Below are positions 44,824 through 62,140 of a stretch of DNA of 64,000 nucleotides, piece after piece. The DNA is from Halarchaeum rubridurum. Lineage in GTDB: Archaea > Halobacteriota > Halobacteria > Halobacteriales > Halobacteriaceae. The stretch lies in the NCBI RefSeq assembly GCF_014647115.1, contig NZ_BMOO01000003.1, positions 248,001 to 312,000 of the forward strand. The letters are read 5' to 3'. How positions within the stretch are numbered: position 1 is the first letter of the stretch; each line of letters starts with the position of its first letter. The notes beneath the pieces were generated by a model that saw nothing but the letters and a program-made list of their open reading frames with translations, searched no databases and was not told the origin of the DNA. The position numbers and the translations under genes are program-made.

Positions 44824-45336
44824 TTAGTTAAGCGAATTCCACCAGACGGCGAAGGCTTGCAACCACGTTTCGGCGGTCTCCGGATCGACGTGGCTAAAAC
44901 TATTGCTAAACGATGAAGTACGTCGTTTTATTTCTCTAAACACACGTTCGACGGCGTTCCGATTTCCATGACGAACGGTTTGAAATCGGAGTCCTGCTCG
45001 ATGCAGTGCAGCCGCTAGATGCTGAGCGTGATCGACGAGAAACACGGCGTCTTCGACGTCGTGTTTCTCCTGAAGCTCCCGAAGGAACTGCTGCGTTAAT
45101 GCCGTCGTGGTCGTCGTAAACAGCCTCAAGTGCAAGAATTTGTTCGTCTCTGGATCGACAGCGGCGTACAGCCAAAACTGCTGGCCGTTGATTCGGATCA
45201 CCGTCTCGTCGAGCGCGACGTGATCCGGACTCGCGTCGCTGGCGGGCTGTAGATCGGCCTCCTGCACCCAATCGTGGACGGCCTTCCGCGAGCGTTCGAC
45301 ACCGAACTTCTCGAGTTCTGAGATGGTATTCGAAAG
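44824..45336 (-). pseudogene. IS6-family transposase, N-terminus lost
   Basis: The reverse strand reads in frame from LSNTISELEKFGVERSR next to the inner IS, through VALDETVIRINGQQFWLYAA (first Asp), VFLVDHAQHLAAAL (second Asp) and NAVERVFREIKRR (Glu), to the stop at 44824. The DDE core is intact, but the first 40-odd codons expected for this haloarchaeal IS6 type are missing; the short piece right of the inner IS (46082-46152) only holds the element's 5' flank with an AT-rich promoter. So the inner insertion was accompanied by a deletion and the gene is dead. Confidence 0.85.
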
Positions 45337-46081
45337 GGCACTGTCTAGTTCTGGACCACCTGGATCGGTGTCTTTCCATCAAGAGCTTGATGCGGTCTGT
45401 GGTGGTTGTAGTAATGCATAAACTGTTCAAGCCACTCTCGGACGCTCGCCCGACTGCCCACCCACGAGTTATGGAAGCGGTCGACCCGCATTTTGAGGGT
45501 GTGAAACCACTTTTCAATGAGGTTTCGCTCGGTATAGTTGACCTGACCGCTCAAGCCTAATCGAGAGAGGGCAGTCCGATAGCCGAATTGATCGACCAGA
45601 AACTCAGCATCGGAGAGATCGTGTTTCTCCTTGAGTCGATGCAGAAACGCAGCCGCCGGATCAGTCCCATGCTGACCAAACACTGCGACGTCAAGAATCA
45701 ACTTTGTCTCGGTATCTATTGCAGCATATAACCAAGACCACTCACCGTCAATCTTGACAGCGGTTTCGTCAACGGCGACCCGCTTCGGCTGCGCCTCAGG
45801 CGGGTCGCATCCGCTGTCAGCCATCCGATGCACCCAATTCCAAACCGCTCCATGAGAGCGTTCAACGCCTAATTCAGCTAAGACCGTTGTTGTTTCTCTG
45901 AGTGAACAACCAGTCTGGTGGAGGCGGACGGCGAACGCCCTGACGGGCGTCGCCGTCCGCTCGTTCTCCCAAGTTTCTTCTAAATCCGGTTCATAGCTCT
46001 CGCTGAGCAGGTCTGCGAGCATCTTGGTCGATTAACTCAACGACCTGCTCACTTCTCAAACTGACTCAACTAGACAGTGCC
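45337..46081 (-). mobile_element. Inner IS6-type insertion sequence, intact
   Basis: 745 bp with perfect 14-bp inverted ends GGCACTGTCTAGTT (45337-45350) and its complement (46068-46081). Carries one full transposase gene. Flanking 8-mers TTCGAAAG and AATTTTAT differ, so no target-site duplication survives; it lies inside the older IS6-type element. Confidence 0.88.
45345..46022 (-). CDS. IS6-family transposase
   Basis: 225 residues, complete. DDE transposase with VAVDETAVKIDGEWSWLYAAID (first Asp), AEFLVDQFGYRTAL (second Asp) and RNLIEKWFHTLKMRVDRF (Glu), a preceding HTH (LRETTTVLAELGVERSHGAVWNWV) and the C-terminal HYYNHHRPHQALDGKTP typical of the family. IS6-type enzymes move elements through cointegrates. 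The gene fills its element, leaving only short ends outside. Confidence 0.92.
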   Translation of the reverse strand: MLADLLSESYEPDLEETWENERTATPVRAFAVRLHQTGCSLRETTTVLAELGVERSHGAVWNWVHRMADSGCDPPEAQPKRVAVDETAVKIDGEWSWLYAAIDTETKLILDVAVFGQHGTDPAAAFLHRLKEKHDLSDAEFLVDQFGYRTALSRLGLSGQVNYTERNLIEKWFHTLKMRVDRFHNSWVGSRASVREWLEQFMHYYNHHRPHQALDGKTPIQVVQN

Positions 46082-46751: not shown

Positions 46752-48566
<1,815 letters not shown>

Positions 48567-48568
48567 CG

Positions 48569-49723
48569 TCAGGCCCTCCGCAGGAGCGCGTCGCTCTCTA
48601 TCCGCCCATCGACGTGGCTCCCGGTCTCGACGTCGACGCGATTCCCCAGCACCGTGCCGGGCGCGAGCGTCGTCGCACCCCCGACGTGCGCGTTGTCACC
48701 GACAACACCTCCCAAGCGCACGTTCTCGTGGACGCGGCCGTTCACCGCGACATTGGTCTCACCACCTTCGACGGTGACGTTCGGGCCGACGGTCGCGTTC
48801 TCGCCGACGACGGCGTCGCGGACGACTGCACCCGCACCAATCGTCGCATCCGGCAGCACGACGCTGTTCGCCACGACGGCGTTCGCGCCCACGGTGACGC
48901 TGTCGCCGAGCGCCGTGCCCGTGAGGATGCGCGCGCCCGGCCTGACGCGGACGTCGTCGCCCACCGCGACGTCGCCGACGACGCTCGCCTCTGCGTCGAC
49001 GTGCGCCGACTCCGCAGTCGCGGCCTCGACGAGTGAGGCGTTGACCCGCAGCAGGTCCCAGAGGTACGAGACGTCGATCCATCGACCGTCGAGCATCACC
49101 GCGTCGACCGCGCTCTCGCCGGCGAGGCGTTCGAGTGTGTCCGTCACGGCGAGTTCGCCCTCCGCCGTCGTCTCCCGGAGCGCGTCGAAGATCGAGGGAC
49201 CGAAACCGTAGATTCCCGCATTTACGACATCCGATGGTGCGGCGTGACGCGGTGGCTTCTCCACGATGTCGACGACGCTGTCCCCCTCTAAGCTGACGAC
49301 GCCGTAGTCGCTCGGCCGCGACGCGCGCGCGACCGCGAGCGTCGTCTCGCCCGTCTCGCGGAGCGCGTCCGCGACGCGCGCGATGTCGTCGCTCTCGACG
49401 ATCCGGTCGCCGTTGAGCGCGACGAACGGCCCCTCGACGAACGACTCGGCCTGCAGGACCGCGTGGCCGGTGCCGAGCTGCTTCTCCTGGGTCGCGTACT
49501 CGATGTCGACGCCCCAGTCGTCGCCGTCACCGAAGTAGCTCTGGATGCGCTCACGTCGGTAGCCGACGACGAGGACGACCTCGTCGATGCCGGCGTCGCG
49601 GACCGCGGTGACGACGTGTTCGAGCAGCGGGCGGTTCGCCACGCGGAGCATCGGCTTCGGTCGCGTCTCGGTCAGGGGCCGCAGACGCGTGCCCTCCCCG
49701 GCCGCGAGTATCACGGCTTTCAT
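48569..49723 (-). CDS. GlmU-like sugar nucleotidyltransferase with left-handed beta-helix
   Basis: 384 residues. N-terminal nucleotidyltransferase domain with VILAAGEGTRLRPLTETRPKPM and ALNGDRIVESD, then from about residue 245 hexapeptide repeats (SVVGDVAVGDDVRVRPGA, TIGAGAVVRDAVVGENATVG) forming a beta-helix. This is the archaeal bifunctional glucosamine-1-phosphate acetyltransferase/uridylyltransferase layout, and the next gene is glmS, so UDP-GlcNAc synthesis is the likely role. A glucose-1-phosphate thymidylyl/uridylyltransferase remains possible. Its ATG overlaps the upstream stop by 4 bases. Confidence 0.87.
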   Translation of the reverse strand: MKAVILAAGEGTRLRPLTETRPKPMLRVANRPLLEHVVTAVRDAGIDEVVLVVGYRRERIQSYFGDGDDWGVDIEYATQEKQLGTGHAVLQAESFVEGPFVALNGDRIVESDDIARVADALRETGETTLAVARASRPSDYGVVSLEGDSVVDIVEKPPRHAAPSDVVNAGIYGFGPSIFDALRETTAEGELAVTDTLERLAGESAVDAVMLDGRWIDVSYLWDLLRVNASLVEAATAESAHVDAEASVVGDVAVGDDVRVRPGARILTGTALGDSVTVGANAVVANSVVLPDATIGAGAVVRDAVVGENATVGPNVTVEGGETNVAVNGRVHENVRLGGVVGDNAHVGGATTLAPGTVLGNRVDVETGSHVDGRIESDALLRRA

Positions 49724-50667
49724 TCCGCTAATAGCTCCCTCACGGTGTCCTCGACGGTGTGCTCGGCCTCGAAGCCGATGGTTTCGCGGGCCGTGGACGT
49801 GTCCACGGTGAAGTCCTCGCCCGCGGCCTCCGACCCGCGCGGATTCTCGACGACTTCGACGTCGACGTCCGTCCCCCGAACGTCGGCGGCGGCCTCCTGT
49901 ACGAGCTCCGCGATTTCGAGGATGGAGTGTTCCTCGCCGCTGGCGATGGGGAGCGTCGTCGCACCGGGTTCGGCGTCGAGCAGCGTCTCCAGCGAGCGCG
50001 GGTACGCCCGCGCGACGTCTTTCACGTGGACGAAGTCGCGGGACTGCGTGCCGGGGGCATGAACTTCGAGGGTCTCCCCTCGCTTTGCGCGGTCGACGAA
50101 GATGTTGATGACGGTGTTCTTCCCGATGCTCCGCCCGTTCAGTTCGTGGTGGCCGTAGAGGTTCGACTTCATGAAGACGTGCGCGGGGAACTCCCCGTTC
50201 GCGAGGTCGTGCACGTCGTCCTCGCTCATCTTCTTCGTCAGCCCGTAGTGGTTCACGGGTGCACGGGGGTGGTCGGCAGTAATGGGGAACTCGGTGGGTT
50301 CGCCGACGATGGCCATGCTGCACGGGAAGACGAGCGGGAGGCCGCGCTCGCGGGCGAACCACGCCACCGTCTCGGTGCCACCGACGTTCACGTCGAAGGC
50401 CTCGGCCTCGTCGTCCGCGCAGGACTGGACGCCGCTGACGGCGGCGAGGTGCATCACGGCGTCGACGTCGTCGAAGGCCTCGCGGAGCGCGTCGCCGTCG
50501 CGGACGTCGAGGTCTCGGACTGTGCAGCCGTCGATATCGGTGACGTCACCGTTCCGGAAGTCGTCCACGGGGACGACGTCGTGGTCGCGGGCGAGCAGTT
50601 CTCGCGTGACGCGCGACCCGATGTAGCCGGCAGCACCGGTGACGCCGATGGTGTGTGTCTCGGTCAT
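49720..50667 (-). CDS. NAD-dependent sugar epimerase/dehydratase (extended SDR)
   Basis: 315 residues. Rossmann motif GVTGAAGYIGSRV, DVNVGGTETV, and catalytic NHYGLTKK (YxxxK). Followed by NLYGHHELNGRSIGKNTVIN and SRDFVHVKDVARAY as in UDP-sugar epimerases. Second-to-last tier of a five-gene operon; both its ends overlap neighbours by 4 bases. Substrate not determined: probably a UDP-hexose or UDP-HexNAc. Confidence 0.88.
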   Translation of the reverse strand: MTETHTIGVTGAAGYIGSRVTRELLARDHDVVPVDDFRNGDVTDIDGCTVRDLDVRDGDALREAFDDVDAVMHLAAVSGVQSCADDEAEAFDVNVGGTETVAWFARERGLPLVFPCSMAIVGEPTEFPITADHPRAPVNHYGLTKKMSEDDVHDLANGEFPAHVFMKSNLYGHHELNGRSIGKNTVINIFVDRAKRGETLEVHAPGTQSRDFVHVKDVARAYPRSLETLLDAEPGATTLPIASGEEHSILEIAELVQEAAADVRGTDVDVEVVENPRGSEAAGEDFTVDTSTARETIGFEAEHTVEDTVRELLAE

Positions 50668-51557
50668 GTCTGGAAGTGGGCGGCGAGGTCGGTTATCCCG
50701 TCGCGGAGGTCGTGGGCCGGGTCGAAGTCGCGTTCGCGCATCCGGTCGAAGCGGACGTGGTAGGATGGCCCCGGGTCCTTTCCTTCGAGGTAGTCGGTCT
50801 CGACGTCTCGCCCGACGACGTCGGCGACGGCCTCCGCTATCTCCTCGATACGGAAGTTGTCGAGGCCGACGTTATAGGTACCGGCGGGCCAGTCGAGAGC
50901 GGCCGCGAACGCCCGCGCGGCGTCCCGGACGTGGAGGAACGGCCGCCAGTTCGTCCCGTCGCCGTACACCGTGAGCGGTTCGTCCGCGAGCGCCCGGAAG
51001 ACGAACGAGTTCAAGACGAGGTTGAAGCGGACGCCAGGTGAGTAACCGAAGTTCGTCGCGAGTCGCAGGCTCACGTCGGTGAAATCGCGCTCGGAGACGA
51101 TGTCCTCGCAGGCGAGCTTCGACTCCGCGTAGGGGTTGCCGGGTGCGGGGTCGGACGTCTCGTCGAGGTCGTCGTCGTACGCGTCGCCGTAGACGTTACA
51201 CGACGAGGAGAGGACGACGGTCTCGACGCCCGCCGCCTCGGCGGCGTCCGCGACGACTTCCGTGCCCTGGACGTTGACGTCCTCGACGCGCTCGCGCATC
51301 TCGTGGGACTGCGACGCGCCCGTGATGGCGGCGAGGTGGACAACCGCGTCGACGTCGACCATCGCGTCCGCGACGTCGTCGGCGTCGCGGATGTCGCCAC
51401 GGTGGAAGTCGATGTCGGGGAGCGACGTCCCCATCAGGTTCCGCGGCGTCGAGAGGGAGAAGTCGTCGAGGACGCGGACGTCGTGCCCCGCCTCGACGAG
51501 TCGCGGGACGAGCGCGCTCCCGACGTAGCCCGCGCCGCCGGTGACGAGAACGTTAAT
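50664..51557 (-). CDS. NAD-dependent sugar epimerase (extended SDR) with apparent ATT start
   Basis: 297 residues if it begins at ATT 51557 (INVLVTGGAGYVGSALVPRL). Rossmann glycine motif GGAGYVG, SSSCNVYGDAYDD, catalytic NPYAESKL (YxxxK), GDGTNWRPFLHVRDAARAF. There is no in-frame ATG, GTG or TTG near the expected N-terminus; the only upstream ATG (51728) would add 57 Arg/Ser-rich residues read out of frame from the neighbouring gene. The ATT forms an ATTAA overlap with the upstream TAA stop, like the coupled starts elsewhere in the operon. Confidence 0.85.
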   Translation of the reverse strand: MNVLVTGGAGYVGSALVPRLVEAGHDVRVLDDFSLSTPRNLMGTSLPDIDFHRGDIRDADDVADAMVDVDAVVHLAAITGASQSHEMRERVEDVNVQGTEVVADAAEAAGVETVVLSSSCNVYGDAYDDDLDETSDPAPGNPYAESKLACEDIVSERDFTDVSLRLATNFGYSPGVRFNLVLNSFVFRALADEPLTVYGDGTNWRPFLHVRDAARAFAAALDWPAGTYNVGLDNFRIEEIAEAVADVVGRDVETDYLEGKDPGPSYHVRFDRMRERDFDPAHDLRDGITDLAAHFQT

Positions 51558-52695
51558 CGGAGAGCACCCCGGGGAGGAAGCGGTCCTCGTGGGCGGCGAT
51601 CCGGTCGTCGTGTTCGACGAGGGTGGCGAGCACCTGCCGGACGCCCGCTTCGAGGCCCATCTCGTCGTCGACGAGCCCGCGGAAGTTCTCGTTGTCCATC
51701 TCCATCTTGTGTTCCTCGTCCTCCTCACGCGGGTTCTCGTAGTGTTTCACCTCGGCGTCGAGGTCGAACTCCGCGCCGACCTCGGCGATGGTCTCGGCGA
51801 GTTCGACGATGGCGACGGGACGGTTCACCTGATTGTAGACGGTGACACCCGTCTCGTCCTCGGGGCCGTCCTCGACGAGCGAGACGAGGCTCTCGACGGT
51901 GTCCTCGAGGGTCACCATCGGCTTGCGCTGCTCGCCCTTCCCGTACACCGTGATGGGGTAGCCGGCGACGGCCTGCGCGCAAAAGCGGTTGACGACGGTG
52001 CCGAAGTAGTAGTCGAAGTCGAAACGCGTCGGCGCGTCGTGCGCGCGGGTCTCCTCCGTCTCGGTTCCGAAGACGATGGCGGTACGGACGTCGCTTATCG
52101 GCATGTCCCACTCGCTGCTCGCGAGGCGCATGTTCCCGGCGTCGAACGCCTTCGTTTGGTGGTACCACGACCCGCCCATCGCGGGGAAGGGGACCTCGTC
52201 GGACTCGCCGCCGTTCTCCATGGGGGCCTCCCCCTCGGGTATCGGGAACTCCGGCGCGCCGTAGACCCCCGTGGTCGTCGTCTCGATGAAGTGCGTGTCG
52301 TCCAGCCCCGCCTCGTGGAGGCAGTGGAGGAGGTTGAGCGTCATCGAGACGTTGTTCTGCTGGGTGAAGAGCGCACGCTCGCCGTTGATACCCGCGTAGA
52401 CCGCGGACGGCTGTGCGGCGGCGTGGAGGACGGTGTCGGGCTCGTAGATGTCGATGAGCTGCTCGACGAAGTCCCGGTCGGCGAGGTCACCCTCGACGTA
52501 AGAGAGCCCGTCGACGTCCTCGAAGCGTTCCTCGGGGGAGTCGATGGGGACGGCGGAGACGCTGCCCGATTCGGCCACCCACTCGCGGCGATAGCCGTTG
52601 TCGACGCAGACGATTCGGTCGTCGAGGCGCTCTGCGAGGCGGAGTGCGGTCGGCCAGCCGACGTAGCCGTCCGCGCCGGTCAGGAGCACGGTCAT
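51553..52695 (-). CDS. SQD1/Agl3-like SDR (UDP-sulfoquinovose synthase family)
   Basis: 380 residues, first gene of the operon. It resembles plant and bacterial SQD1 over its whole length: VLLTGADGYVGWPTALRL, VCVDNGYRRE, VLHAAAQPSAVYAGINGERALFTQQNN, TTTTGVYGAPE, GGSWYHQTKAFDAGNM (catalytic YxxxK), the DAPTRFDFDYYFGTVVNRFCAQAV block, YGKGEQRKPMVTLEDTV and NPREEDEEH. SQD1 makes UDP-sulfoquinovose from UDP-glucose and sulfite; Sulfolobus Agl3 does this for N-glycans. Whether this member uses sulfite is inference. An operator lies directly upstream. Confidence 0.84.
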   Translation of the reverse strand: MTVLLTGADGYVGWPTALRLAERLDDRIVCVDNGYRREWVAESGSVSAVPIDSPEERFEDVDGLSYVEGDLADRDFVEQLIDIYEPDTVLHAAAQPSAVYAGINGERALFTQQNNVSMTLNLLHCLHEAGLDDTHFIETTTTGVYGAPEFPIPEGEAPMENGGESDEVPFPAMGGSWYHQTKAFDAGNMRLASSEWDMPISDVRTAIVFGTETEETRAHDAPTRFDFDYYFGTVVNRFCAQAVAGYPITVYGKGEQRKPMVTLEDTVESLVSLVEDGPEDETGVTVYNQVNRPVAIVELAETIAEVGAEFDLDAEVKHYENPREEDEEHKMEMDNENFRGLVDDEMGLEAGVRQVLATLVEHDDRIAAHEDRFLPGVLSD

Positions 52696-52697
52696 GA

Positions 52698-52718
52698 GTT
52701 ACTCAGAGTGTGAGTAAC
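52698..52718 (-). promoter_or_regulatory. TrmB-type operator in the SQD1-glmS operon promoter
   Basis: Perfect palindrome GTTACTC-N7-GAGTAAC ending 3 bp before the start codon at 52695. It contains TACT-N8-GAGTA, the element known to be bound by Halobacterium TrmB. A TATA-like CTTATGC (about 52723-52731, reverse strand) lies just upstream, so the operator covers the expected transcription start, a position that suggests repression. Confidence 0.82.
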
Positions 52719-52762: not shown

Positions 52763-53623
52763 TCAGTCGAGGACGTCGGCCGGACGGACGGCTTCGTGCT
52801 CCCAGACGAGGTCGAAGAACCGCTTGAACCCGGCGACGAACGAGCCGTTGGCCGTGACTGCCGCCTGTCGCATCGATAGCGGCACGTCCTCCTCCTCGAC
52901 GAGGAGAACTCCTCGTCCGGTCTCGTAGTCCATGCTCGGGTCGGCGAACGTGCCGCGCCACGGAAGCCGTTCGCGGCTGAATCGCACCGCGACACCGGGG
53001 TACGTGTCGCGGACGTGCGAGACGATTTCGCGCTGAATCGCTCGATTCGTCTCGTCGAGGTGGTCGGGGTGGAGGAGGAGCACGGAGACGTCGATGTCGC
53101 GGTCGAGCGCGTCCGCGAACGCCGCCTCCACGCGCTCGAAGTACTCGAAGGACTTCGTGACGACGAACACCGACTGCGCCGCGTCCCGATAGAGCGTGCG
53201 CGTCTCCCGCTCGGAGGGGTCGCCGACGTCGACGACCCAGAACAGTTCCTCGGTCGGCGTGACGTCCTCGCTCGCCCCCTCGTAGAGCGGGACGAACGTG
53301 TCGAGGAACTCCTCGCGCATCCCCTCGACGTCCTGTCGATACCGCTCGAAGGCCTGGCGTTCGTTCTCGACCGCGCGTTCGAGGATACGCTCCGGGGACT
53401 TCGGCTGGTAGTGCTTCGGGCGGCCGGGGATTATCTTCACGTAGCCCCTATCGGCGAGCGACTCTAGAACGCCGTAGATACGGGCTTTCGGGATACCTGC
53501 CGCCTCCGAGAGGTCGGGGGCGGTCGTTCGCCCCAGCGCCAGGAGCTCGGCGAGCGCGTTCGCCTCGTACTCGGTGAGGTCCAGCCGTTCGAGGACGTCG
53601 GCTGGCGCGTCGGGTCCGGCCAT
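52763..53623 (-). CDS. trmB: TrmB-family transcriptional regulator
   Basis: 286 residues from MAGPDAPADVLERLDLTEYEANAL at 53623. N-terminal winged helix (LTEYEANALAELLALGRTTAPDLSEAAGIPKARIYGVLESLADRGYV), a helical linker (ILERAVENERQAFERYRQDVEGMREEF), and a PLD-like effector region with FVVTKSFEYFERV. TrmB proteins sense sugars and control sugar and glucose metabolism. Two copies of a TrmB-type operator flank the gene: in front of the sugar-nucleotide operon and in front of the aglJ unit. It diverges from the latter; a TATA-like CTATTG lies about 28 bp upstream of its own start. The gene could be a paralogue of the global TrmB. Confidence 0.82.
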   Translation of the reverse strand: MAGPDAPADVLERLDLTEYEANALAELLALGRTTAPDLSEAAGIPKARIYGVLESLADRGYVKIIPGRPKHYQPKSPERILERAVENERQAFERYRQDVEGMREEFLDTFVPLYEGASEDVTPTEELFWVVDVGDPSERETRTLYRDAAQSVFVVTKSFEYFERVEAAFADALDRDIDVSVLLLHPDHLDETNRAIQREIVSHVRDTYPGVAVRFSRERLPWRGTFADPSMDYETGRGVLLVEEEDVPLSMRQAAVTANGSFVAGFKRFFDLVWEHEAVRPADVLD

Positions 53624-53692: not shown

Positions 53693-53713
53693 GTTACTCC
53701 AAGTATGAGTAAC
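53693..53713 (+). promoter_or_regulatory. TrmB-type operator overlapping the microprotein start
   Basis: Second copy of GTTACTC-N7-GAGTAAC with TACT-N8-GAGTA inside. It overlaps the ATG of the 31-residue gene (53705) and lies just after a TATA-like CCCTTAGG (about 53674-53681). The spacing between arms is identical to the copy at 52698. Confidence 0.82.
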
Positions 53714-53865: not shown

Positions 53866-54774
53866 ATGCCGGACTACTCCGAGGTCTGCGTGCTCATCCC
53901 GACGCTCGACGAGGCGGAGACCATCGGCGACGTCGTCGACGACTTCCGCGCGGCGGGCTTCGAGTCGATCCTCGTCGTCGACGGCCACTCGACGGACGAC
54001 ACCCGCGAGATCGCGCGCGAGCACGGCGCGGACGTCATCACGCAGTCCGGCGCGGGGAAGGGCCAAGCCCTCCGCGAGGGCGTCGCGCACGTCGAGGAAC
54101 GATACGTGTTGATGCTTGATGGCGACGGTACGTATCGCGCCGACGACGCCGACGCGATGCTCGCCCCCCTGCTTGAGGGCGACGCCGAGCACGTCATCGG
54201 CGATCGCTTCGCCGACATGGAGACGGGGGCGATGAGCAGGCTCAACGGGATGGGGAACTCGGTCATCAATCGGGCGTTCGCGTTCATCCACGGCTACGAC
54301 TACCGGGACATCCTGAGCGGGTATCGCGCCTTCAGTGTTGAGTCCTTCGAGCGGATGCACCTCACCGCGGACGGCTTCGCCATCGAGACCGAGATGGCCG
54401 TCGAGTGCGCGAAACACGACGTCGAGACGCGCGTCGTCGACATCACCTATCTCGCGCGCCCCGACGCCTCCGACACGAACCTCCGGCCGTTCCGCGACGG
54501 CGGGCGCATCATCTTCGCGCTCTACAAGCTCGCCAAGACCAACAATCCGCTCTTCTACTTCGGGAGCGTCGGCGCGGGCTCGACGCTCGTCGGCGTCGTC
54601 ACCGCGATCTACGTCGCCGTCGAGTGGTTTACTGTTGGTGTTTCACACAACATCATGGCGCTCTTCGCGGCGTTCACCGTCCTCCTCGGGATTCAGCTGC
54701 TCATGTTCGGCGTGCTCAGCGACCTCCTCGTCACGCTCCACCACGAGCAGCTCCGCCGGCTGGAGGACGACTGA
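53866..54774 (+). CDS. aglJ: Dolichyl-phosphate glycosyltransferase, AglJ-like
   Basis: 302 residues from MPDYSEVCVLIPTLDEAETIG at 53866. GT2 enzyme of the polyprenyl-phosphate sugar synthase type: SILVVDGHSTDDT, MLDGDGTYRADDADAML (metal site), VIGDRFADMETGAMSRLN, DILSGYRAFSVESFERM, two C-terminal membrane helices. This matches Haloferax AglJ, which attaches the first sugar of the N-glycan to dolichyl phosphate. Control by the TrmB-type operator upstream would place the entry step of glycosylation under sugar sensing. The start was chosen to match AglJ; an upstream in-frame ATG (53767) lies in the microprotein gene. Confidence 0.82.
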   Translation: MPDYSEVCVLIPTLDEAETIGDVVDDFRAAGFESILVVDGHSTDDTREIAREHGADVITQSGAGKGQALREGVAHVEERYVLMLDGDGTYRADDADAMLAPLLEGDAEHVIGDRFADMETGAMSRLNGMGNSVINRAFAFIHGYDYRDILSGYRAFSVESFERMHLTADGFAIETEMAVECAKHDVETRVVDITYLARPDASDTNLRPFRDGGRIIFALYKLAKTNNPLFYFGSVGAGSTLVGVVTAIYVAVEWFTVGVSHNIMALFAAFTVLLGIQLLMFGVLSDLLVTLHHEQLRRLEDD

Positions 54775-60949: not shown

Positions 60950-62140
60950 CTAGTACGTTTGTGGTGGCTGTTCGAGGATGTCGAAGATTTCGCGAGCGCG
61001 ATACTCCTGTCGGCGGCCTCGTCCGGGAACTTCCTCGAGGACGCCCTCGTCTTCGAGGGCGGTGATCGCCCGATAGGCGGTAGATTGCTCGACGTCGAAG
61101 CGTTGCATGACGGTCTTCGTCGTGAGATAGGGCTGCTCGAAGAGTGTGCAGGCGAGTCGATGCTTCGTGTACGCGACGCCGCCATACGCTTCTTCGTACG
61201 TCCGGCGGAGGTCGTCAAGGGCGAGCGTTCGCTCGACTGATTCGTGCGCTTGCTGGGCGATACCGCGCACGAAGAAGGACAGCCAGACCTCCCAGTCACC
61301 ACGCGTTCGAACGGCGTTCATCCGCTCAACGTACGTCGCCTTATTCCGATTGAAGTATTCACTCAGGTAGAGGTTTGGACGCTTTAGATATCCCTGGTCG
61401 TAGAGTTGGAGCGTGATGAGGAGGCGACCAAGGCGGCCGTTCCCATCGCCATACGAGTGAATTGTCTCGAACTGATAGTGGAAGAGTCCGATGTCGACGA
61501 GCGGATGGTAGCATCCACCCGTCCGGTAGTAGGTGATGAGTGCGTCCATCGATCCATCGACGGCACCCGGGACCGGTGGCAGGAAGTCGCCCAAATGATT
61601 CGGGATAGTCTTGTACGAACCGATGGTGTCGGTGTCGACGCGGTCGTCGGGGACGTCTGTGAGGAGGGTCTCGTGGAGTTGATGGAGGAGGGGGACGGTG
61701 ATCTCGGCGTCGTCGTCGAGGGCGTCGATCCCGTCGAGTATGGCTGCTTCGTAGTTCAACACCTCTTGGGTGTCCTTCGTGTCTGCGGGGGTCCGGTCGT
61801 CCGTGGTGGATTCCGCAGTCGGTTCGTCAAGCGCCCGCGTTTCGAGGCTATAAAGCGCATTATAGTCGATGTCGGCACCCTCGATCTCCGCGGACTCCAT
61901 CGCCTCCTTGCGCAAGAGAGACGTGTAGAGTACTGGTGGGAAGTCGAGTTCGCGACTGATGCCGCTCAACTGCCCCAGCCAGAACGTCGCGTCAGCGAGC
62001 GTTTCGTAGAAGGACGCATCGAGATCGAGTGATCGCGATGGAGGCAGTGGCTCGGGCTTGTAGTAGGACTGTCTCCCGTAGGAAACGAGCGTTCCCGGCG
62101 CCGAGTCTTCCAGCTCGATGCCCTGCATGCACGTATCCAC
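60950..62140 (-). CDS. fic: Fic/DOC family protein with C-terminal winged helix
   Basis: 396 residues. N-terminal Fic_N region contains the inhibitory helix motif SAEIEG (83-88, pattern S-x-x-x-E-G), which blocks ATP binding in class II Fic proteins. The catalytic loop is HSYGDGNGRLGR (228-239), with the essential His and Arg. The C-terminal 70 residues form a winged helix (TKTVMQRFDVEQSTAYRAITALEDEGVLEEV). Fic enzymes AMPylate target proteins. The start at 62140 lies about 26 bp after a TATA-like CTATAGATT; an ATG four codons later is possible. Confidence 0.9.
   Translation of the reverse strand: MDTCMQGIELEDSAPGTLVSYGRQSYYKPEPLPPSRSLDLDASFYETLADATFWLGQLSGISRELDFPPVLYTSLLRKEAMESAEIEGADIDYNALYSLETRALDEPTAESTTDDRTPADTKDTQEVLNYEAAILDGIDALDDDAEITVPLLHQLHETLLTDVPDDRVDTDTIGSYKTIPNHLGDFLPPVPGAVDGSMDALITYYRTGGCYHPLVDIGLFHYQFETIHSYGDGNGRLGRLLITLQLYDQGYLKRPNLYLSEYFNRNKATYVERMNAVRTRGDWEVWLSFFVRGIAQQAHESVERTLALDDLRRTYEEAYGGVAYTKHRLACTLFEQPYLTTKTVMQRFDVEQSTAYRAITALEDEGVLEEVPGRGRRQEYRAREIFDILEQPPQTY

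Follow-up and report, generated by a model that had tools for sequence, protein, structure and literature searches.

A sister clade of SQD1 in halophilic archaea as candidate UDP-6-sulfo-quinovosamine synthases for N-glycosylation

Results

An SQD1-like gene heads an operon with glmS beside aglJ

The window analysed here is a 64,000-nucleotide stretch of the Halarchaeum rubridurum genome (contig NZ_BMOO01000003.1), and the features discussed below are listed in Table 1. Five genes, SQ, SDR1, SDR2, a nucleotidyltransferase gene and glmS, overlap or abut one another as in a single transcript. Upstream of SQ, on its strand, is the gene for a TrmB-type regulator, from which aglJ is oriented divergently. 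The first-pass annotation had placed SQ at the head of an operon with two epimerases, a GlmU-like enzyme and GlmS, beside AglJ, and this layout is confirmed by the open reading frames and profile scores, AglJ lying beyond the intervening regulator gene. The operon glmS is the sole complete copy found in a search of the organism's own genome.

Table 1 Features of the SQ locus in the Halarchaeum window
Feature	Coordinates	Strand	Remarks
GlmS, glutamine:fructose-6-phosphate transaminase	46752..48566	-	765.8 bits, cut-off 418
Arch_glmU-related sugar-1-phosphate nucleotidyltransferase with left-handed beta helix	48569..49723	-	309.5 bits, cut-off 292.1
SDR2, GalE-type SDR	49720..50667	-	
SDR1, extended SDR of GalE/RmlB type	50664..51557	-	
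SQ, SQD1-sister SDR, first operon gene	51553..52695	-	380 aa; proposed UDP-6-sulfo-quinovosamine synthase
Palindrome GTTACTC-N7-GAGTAAC, putative TrmB-type operator	52698..52718		directly before the SQ start codon
TrmB-family regulator	52763..53623	-	PF01978, 73.4 bits; start MAGPDAP inferred from sequence
Second palindrome copy	53693..53713		between trmB and aglJ
AglJ, S-layer N-glycosyltransferase	53866..54774	+	TIGR04182, 454.4 bits, cut-off 325; start MPDYSEV inferred from sequence

The GlmU-like label needs a qualification. The operon protein is best matched over positions 1-263 (TIGR03992, above cut-off) and has the N-terminal nucleotidyltransferase domain, but it lacks the acetyltransferase motif HxxYVGD...ANLRHD, which is present in a second, full GlmU encoded elsewhere in the genome (505 bits). 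The motif is also absent from the other GlmS-adjacent haloarchaeal nucleotidyltransferases among those listed, and its loss from GlmS-linked copies would fit a non-acetylated product.

The start of SDR1 appears to be an ATT overlapping the SQ stop codon (51555-51557), where orthologues have Met, while the start listed for this frame is a GTG far upstream. Two IS6-type transposase reading frames are found just downstream of glmS (44824-46022), and a Fic-type protein of the adenylyltransferase family is encoded at 60950-62140 (116 bits, under the curated cut-off). Searching the Halarchaeum genome for a PAPS reductase gave weak, unspecific matches only.

SQ is closest to SQD1 in sequence and predicted fold

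SQ matches the SQD1 chains with an E-value of 3e-64 over residues 3-334 in phmmer, the next family reaching 2e-10, and the UDP-sulfoquinovose synthase profile NF041015 with 328.9 bits (E 4e-98). The AlphaFold2 model (pTM 0.84, mean pLDDT 80.6, with pLDDT below 50 in loops 98-104 and 144-154 of the active site) exhibits its strongest similarity to the solved structure of SQD1, 1qrr (Z 40.8, rmsd 2.4 over 344 residues), and the best epimerase match is far behind at Z 29.4. The likeness to SQD1 that the first-pass annotation saw is thus borne out. A 90% identical gene is found in Halarchaeum nitratireducens.

The SQ score falls below the NF041015 cut-off of 575. This shortfall was considered as an argument against SQD1 function and dropped, because Sinorhizobium meliloti SqdB, at 332.1 bits, is likewise under the cut-off, which is therefore not diagnostic. 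The nearness of SQD1 in both fold and sequence speaks for a rival assignment, an ordinary UDP-sulfoquinovose synthase acting on UDP-glucose and sulfite, with the GlmS operon reflecting only a pooled supply of nucleotide sugars. This is also the published reading: the halophilic proteins are described as UDP-sulfoquinovose synthase cluster IV, and a SqdB operon has been reported in Haloquadratum (PMC4388408).

The SQ active site retains the catalytic residues and differs at two motifs

The alignment shows that the catalytic residues T141, Y178 and K182 are conserved in SQ, as are the histidine that follows the tyrosine (H179) and the SQD1-like substrate segment RFDFD..FGT..NRF. Similarity to SQD1 and Agl3 across the catalytic and substrate segments, as first described, therefore holds for the Thr-Tyr-Lys triad and the adjacent His, and breaks down at two places: HFxEQRSAPY, whose Arg is replaced by Pro, and LGTMG, which has become TTTTG. 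The first of these motifs, H(F)(A/G)EQRSAPY in SQD1, SqdB and Agl3 (the Agl3 motif being taken from a published mutagenesis table), reads H(A/T/L)AAQPSAPY in the SQ clade. The position of Agl3 Arg101 is occupied by Pro96 in SQ and by Pro in 35/35 clade members of the tree described below, and by Arg in all seven R-type proteins compared, including SQD1 and SqdB. At the second motif TTTxG or ATTTG replaces LGTxG in the clade, and SQ carries TTG in place of the [ST]MG fingerprint; TMG is retained in the Methanonatronarchaeal and nanohaloarchaeal members.

In Agl3 the R101A and M145A mutants are inactive, and E147A leaves 12% activity (PMC4388408). Since R101 and M145 are both essential in Agl3 and both replaced in SQ, the chemistry of SQ could have changed or could stop before sulfite addition. 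Loss of E147 was tried as a diagnostic feature but abandoned, since Val occupies this position in S. meliloti SqdB too; this shared Val and the shared sub-cut-off NF041015 score are compatible with SQ being an ordinary synthase.

The loss of the R101, M145 and E147 equivalents could also mean that sulfite chemistry has been lost, SQ being a 5,6- or 4,6-dehydratase or a 4-epimerase of the UDP-GlcNAc type that, with SDR1 and SDR2, yields a sulfur-free deoxy amino sugar. SQD1 enzymes deprived of sulfite do act as 5,6-dehydratases (PMC8987622), and three consecutive SDR genes recall deoxysugar pathways. However, the TTTTG motif of SQ contains neither an Asp/Glu nor an Asp/Lys dehydratase pair, and SQ has kept the SQD1-like FGTxxNRF substrate segment as well as the His next to the catalytic Tyr. 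We consider a sulfur-free product improbable; the sugar of Haloarcula hispanica described below also counts against it. SQ probably works like SQD1.

SQ belongs to a sister clade of SQD1 and SqdB

A phylogeny against SQD1 and Agl3 had been suggested for SQ; the 48-protein tree built here answers it for SQD1 and SqdB. The 35 Pro-type proteins all group together (95/98). A second group (94/91) is formed by seven proteins of the Arg type, SQD1 and bacterial SqdB among them, and both groups are separate from the other SDRs. As judged from the sequences, SQ is outside the clade of proven synthases, in a monophyletic sister clade to SQD1/SqdB. This separation, the Pro found throughout the clade in place of an arginine essential in Agl3, and the missing TMG fingerprint are reasons not to file SQ as a UDP-sulfoquinovose synthase, and they make plain SQD1 function, UDP-glucose to UDP-sulfoquinovose, the less likely reading of the sequence.

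Pro-type genes were found in Halobacteria, in a Methanonatronarchaeal MAG, in a nanohaloarchaeon and in further families of the same phylum. In the order they occur in 167 of the 391 sampled genomes, and none scores above the NF041015 cut-off. Both the MAG (L046:10001-11149) and the nanohaloarchaeon (L047:10001-11143) have an SQ gene of 66-67% identity, next to which SDR-like genes are found, and this spread suggests that the SQ module moves between halophile lineages. One further homologue (L128, G624:C18:59324-60484) contains one in-frame TGA. A third SQD1-like type, with the motif AEISSAPYS, is present at locus L162 (G418:C45:84000-103500), near a TrmB gene, two GlmU-like genes and a 1101-aa reading frame containing GlmS.

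Haloferax volcanii, a control in the 391-genome survey, showed no SQD1-family match, though its S-layer has been reported to carry sulfoquinovose-hexose repeats (PMC4343526). Because sulfoquinovose residues and sulfated deoxyhexoses are identical in elemental composition, that assignment may deserve a second look.

Linkage of SQ to SDR genes and glmS is conserved

Gene linkage was counted over 80 named SQ loci, which are not independent of one another and differ in arrangement. SQ is followed directly by an SDR1 orthologue in 73 of them, the SQ-SDR1-SDR2 trio is kept in 70, and a TrmB gene is nearby in 40; conversely, SQ is present in 72 of the 74 genomes having an SDR2 orthologue. GlmS is encoded within 10 kb of SQ in 37/80 loci, corresponding to 24 of 41 genera or MAGs, and is found upstream and downstream on either strand, so that all four arrangements occur. 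By our own estimate the chance of finding GlmS within 10 kb of a random gene in a 3 Mb genome is about 0.7%. Because GlmS also feeds ordinary UDP-GlcNAc, this linkage is no proof that SQ uses an amino sugar.

In the phylum beyond the order, two loci (L152 and L160) hold a contiguous series comprising SQ, one or more SDRs, a full GlmU (585 and 564 bits, respectively), a shorter nucleotidyltransferase and GlmS; in L152 the series includes one small extra reading frame. In every Pro-type locus fetched outside the order trmB adjoins SQ, or, in L160, is one gene away.

UDP-glucose dehydrogenase and Bac_transf sugar transferases are also encoded in some SQ loci, which would fit a sulfonated sugar destined for exopolysaccharide or glycolipid instead of N-glycan. 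Two observations speak against this destination, namely an operator common to SQ and aglJ across genomes, described next, and an STT3-like gene beside SDR2 in Haloarcula, and we regard it as quite unlikely.

A TrmB-type palindrome is common to SQ and trmB/aglJ

The palindromes in Table 1 match TACT-N7-8-GAGTA, the TrmB operator motif of Halobacterium salinarum (VNG1451C), which represses when located downstream of the promoter (PMC4158304). The window contains two sites (four strand matches), against 0.12 matches expected by chance, and in 60/80 loci the motif is positioned at -19 to -23 of the SQ start, the background rate being 0.015 per 200 nt. A search of the whole Halarchaeum genome for the longer form GTTACTC-N7-GAGTAA gave just two sites, the SQ start and trmB/aglJ. 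The H. hispanica genome likewise has exactly two, again SQ and trmB/aglJ, which there are 684 kb apart.

Of 30 sampled genomes with SQ, 23 contain the form TTACTC-N7-GAGTAA, at one or two sites each, against none of 23 sampled genomes without SQ; the same pattern read backwards, used as a control, matched in one genome. By coordinate comparison, 22 of the 23 site-bearing genomes have one at the SQ start. Six palindromes located away from SQ, in the six genomes checked, fall between trmB and aglJ, and the remaining fetched copies precede aglJ or trmB, or lie between trmB and the nucleotidyltransferase-glmS pair. The distribution suggests a two-site regulon composed of the SQ operon and trmB/aglJ, and the shared palindrome is a link between the operon and N-glycan initiation that does not depend on gene order.

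The regulator encoded beside aglJ is a different TrmB paralogue from VNG1451C. HAH_1548, a TrmB protein of H. hispanica, was considered as the regulator and set aside: the SQ cluster is not named among the ChIP peaks inspected, a part of the published table, and the paralogue beside aglJ is accordingly preferred.

The SQ orthologue of Haloarcula hispanica

The S-layer N-glycan of H. hispanica contains 6-sulfo-quinovosamine (6-sulfo-QuiN), and the cell has DolP-QuiNS (PMC9943897). We could not find a published identification of the synthase for this sugar. One of our genomes was recognised as H. hispanica by exact, correctly ordered matches of the published aepG primers, and it contains exactly one SQD1-family gene (E below 1e-60), which is an SQ-clade orthologue. 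This gene, at L115 12624-13796 and probably HAH_0496, heads the run SQ-SDR1-SDR2-STT3-like, in which the STT3-like gene adjoins SDR2. Within about 14 kb are also found a UDP-glucose dehydrogenase and a Bac_transf sugar transferase (both assigned via matching H. argentinensis genes), an AglF-like protein, GlmS and a GlmU-like protein. By count and position this eleven-gene cluster is probably HAH_0486-HAH_0496, listed as a glycosylation cluster by the group behind the H. hispanica glycan work.

The assignment of 6-sulfo-QuiN to the H. hispanica SQ gene is by elimination, in an organism that has other glycosylation clusters. It nevertheless bears on two of the alternatives. H. hispanica has a single SQ-clade gene, and its known sulfonated sugar is an amino sugar, which argues against an ordinary synthase for UDP-sulfoquinovose and leaves that assignment a minority prospect, though the strongest of the competing ones. 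The same organism makes a C6-sulfonated amino sugar with no other SQD1-family gene, which also counts against a dehydratase or epimerase that has lost its sulfite chemistry.

Discussion

SQ shares with the SQD1/SqdB enzymes of Arabidopsis (1qrr/1i24) and S. meliloti the fold, length, Thr/Tyr/Lys triad, His after Tyr and the segment RFD(F/Y)D..FGT..NRF, and differs from them at EQRSAPY, LGTMG and QTR, which have become AQPSAPY, TTTTG and QRK, respectively. Whereas SQD1 and SqdB are linked to the sulfoquinovose transferase, SQ is linked to GlmS and two SDRs. Agl3 of Sulfolobus acidocaldarius is likewise an archaeal member of the SQD1 family and serves N-glycosylation, but it requires R101 and M145 (PMC4388408) and is encoded beside glucokinase and glucose-1-phosphate enzymes, where SQ has GlmS.

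In the 2015 study by Zolghadr, the 'UDP-sulfoquinovose synthases' of halophiles form a distant cluster IV that shares no more than 36 identical residues with the others (PMC4388408). Matched by description, as proteins of halophilic Euryarchaeota, cluster IV is almost certainly the same family as SQ. Its function was inferred from the family at that time; for SQ we propose another substrate, membership of a regulon and a connection with 6-sulfo-quinovosamine. The gene, operon, clade, active-site changes, conserved linkage and operator distribution were computed directly. For 6-sulfo-QuiN and DolP-QuiNS of H. hispanica the chemistry is known, and that organism has an orthologous SQ cluster together with the operator. 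Both whole genomes searched have just two sites for the long form of this operator, one at the SQ operon and one at trmB/aglJ.

We propose, at a probability of roughly 60%, that SQ converts UDP-glucosamine or UDP-GlcNAc and sulfite into UDP-6-sulfo-quinovosamine for N-glycans by SQD1-type chemistry, with the operon and aglJ under the TrmB-type regulator. The first-pass annotation offered either a sulfonated N-glycan sugar or the use of SQD1-type chemistry on another nucleotide sugar; each has partial support, and the evidence favours both together, with an amino sugar in place of glucose. That evidence consists of the separate clade, the changed active site, the GlmS linkage, the 6-sulfo-QuiN of H. 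hispanica with its single SQ gene, and the operator shared with aglJ.

For Halarchaeum, the substrate of SQ, the addition of sulfite, the product and its use in N-glycans are what we infer, in the following scheme. GlmS would provide glucosamine-6-phosphate, a mutase encoded elsewhere would convert it to the 1-phosphate, and the operon nucleotidyltransferase, having lost its acetyltransferase motif, would make the UDP sugar. SQ would oxidise this UDP-amino sugar at C4 with NAD, the C6 hydroxyl would then be lost to give a 4-keto-5,6-ene, and sulfite would add at C6 before C4 is reduced. SDR1 and SDR2 may supply a partner sugar (e.g. UDP-galactose) or modify the product, and the sulfonated amino sugar would pass to the lipid-linked N-glycan. 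The TrmB-type regulator encoded next to the operon is predicted to control the operon and aglJ through their common palindrome. Sulfo-quinovosamine itself could be made without the two extra SDRs, which counts against the proposal.

A narrower and more tentative version, which we hold to be somewhat less probable than its negation, specifies non-acetylated UDP-glucosamine as the substrate that SQ sulfonates at C6, with GlmS and the acetyltransferase-less GlmU paralogue as its suppliers, to give UDP-6-sulfo-quinovosamine for archaeal N-glycans within a dedicated two-site TrmB regulon; this would be a new activity.

With an amino-sugar operon under a switch common to N-glycosylation, the probable product of SQ is a sulfur-containing amino sugar for proteins of the cell surface. 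If this is true, SQD1 chemistry would be extended from glucose to amino sugars, and the label 'UDP-sulfoquinovose synthase' now on the whole archaeal SQ clade may be wrong. The compact regulon would tie the supply of the sulfo-sugar to the start of N-glycan assembly. The SQ orthologue is the single named candidate for the 6-sulfo-quinovosamine synthase in the genetically tractable H. hispanica.
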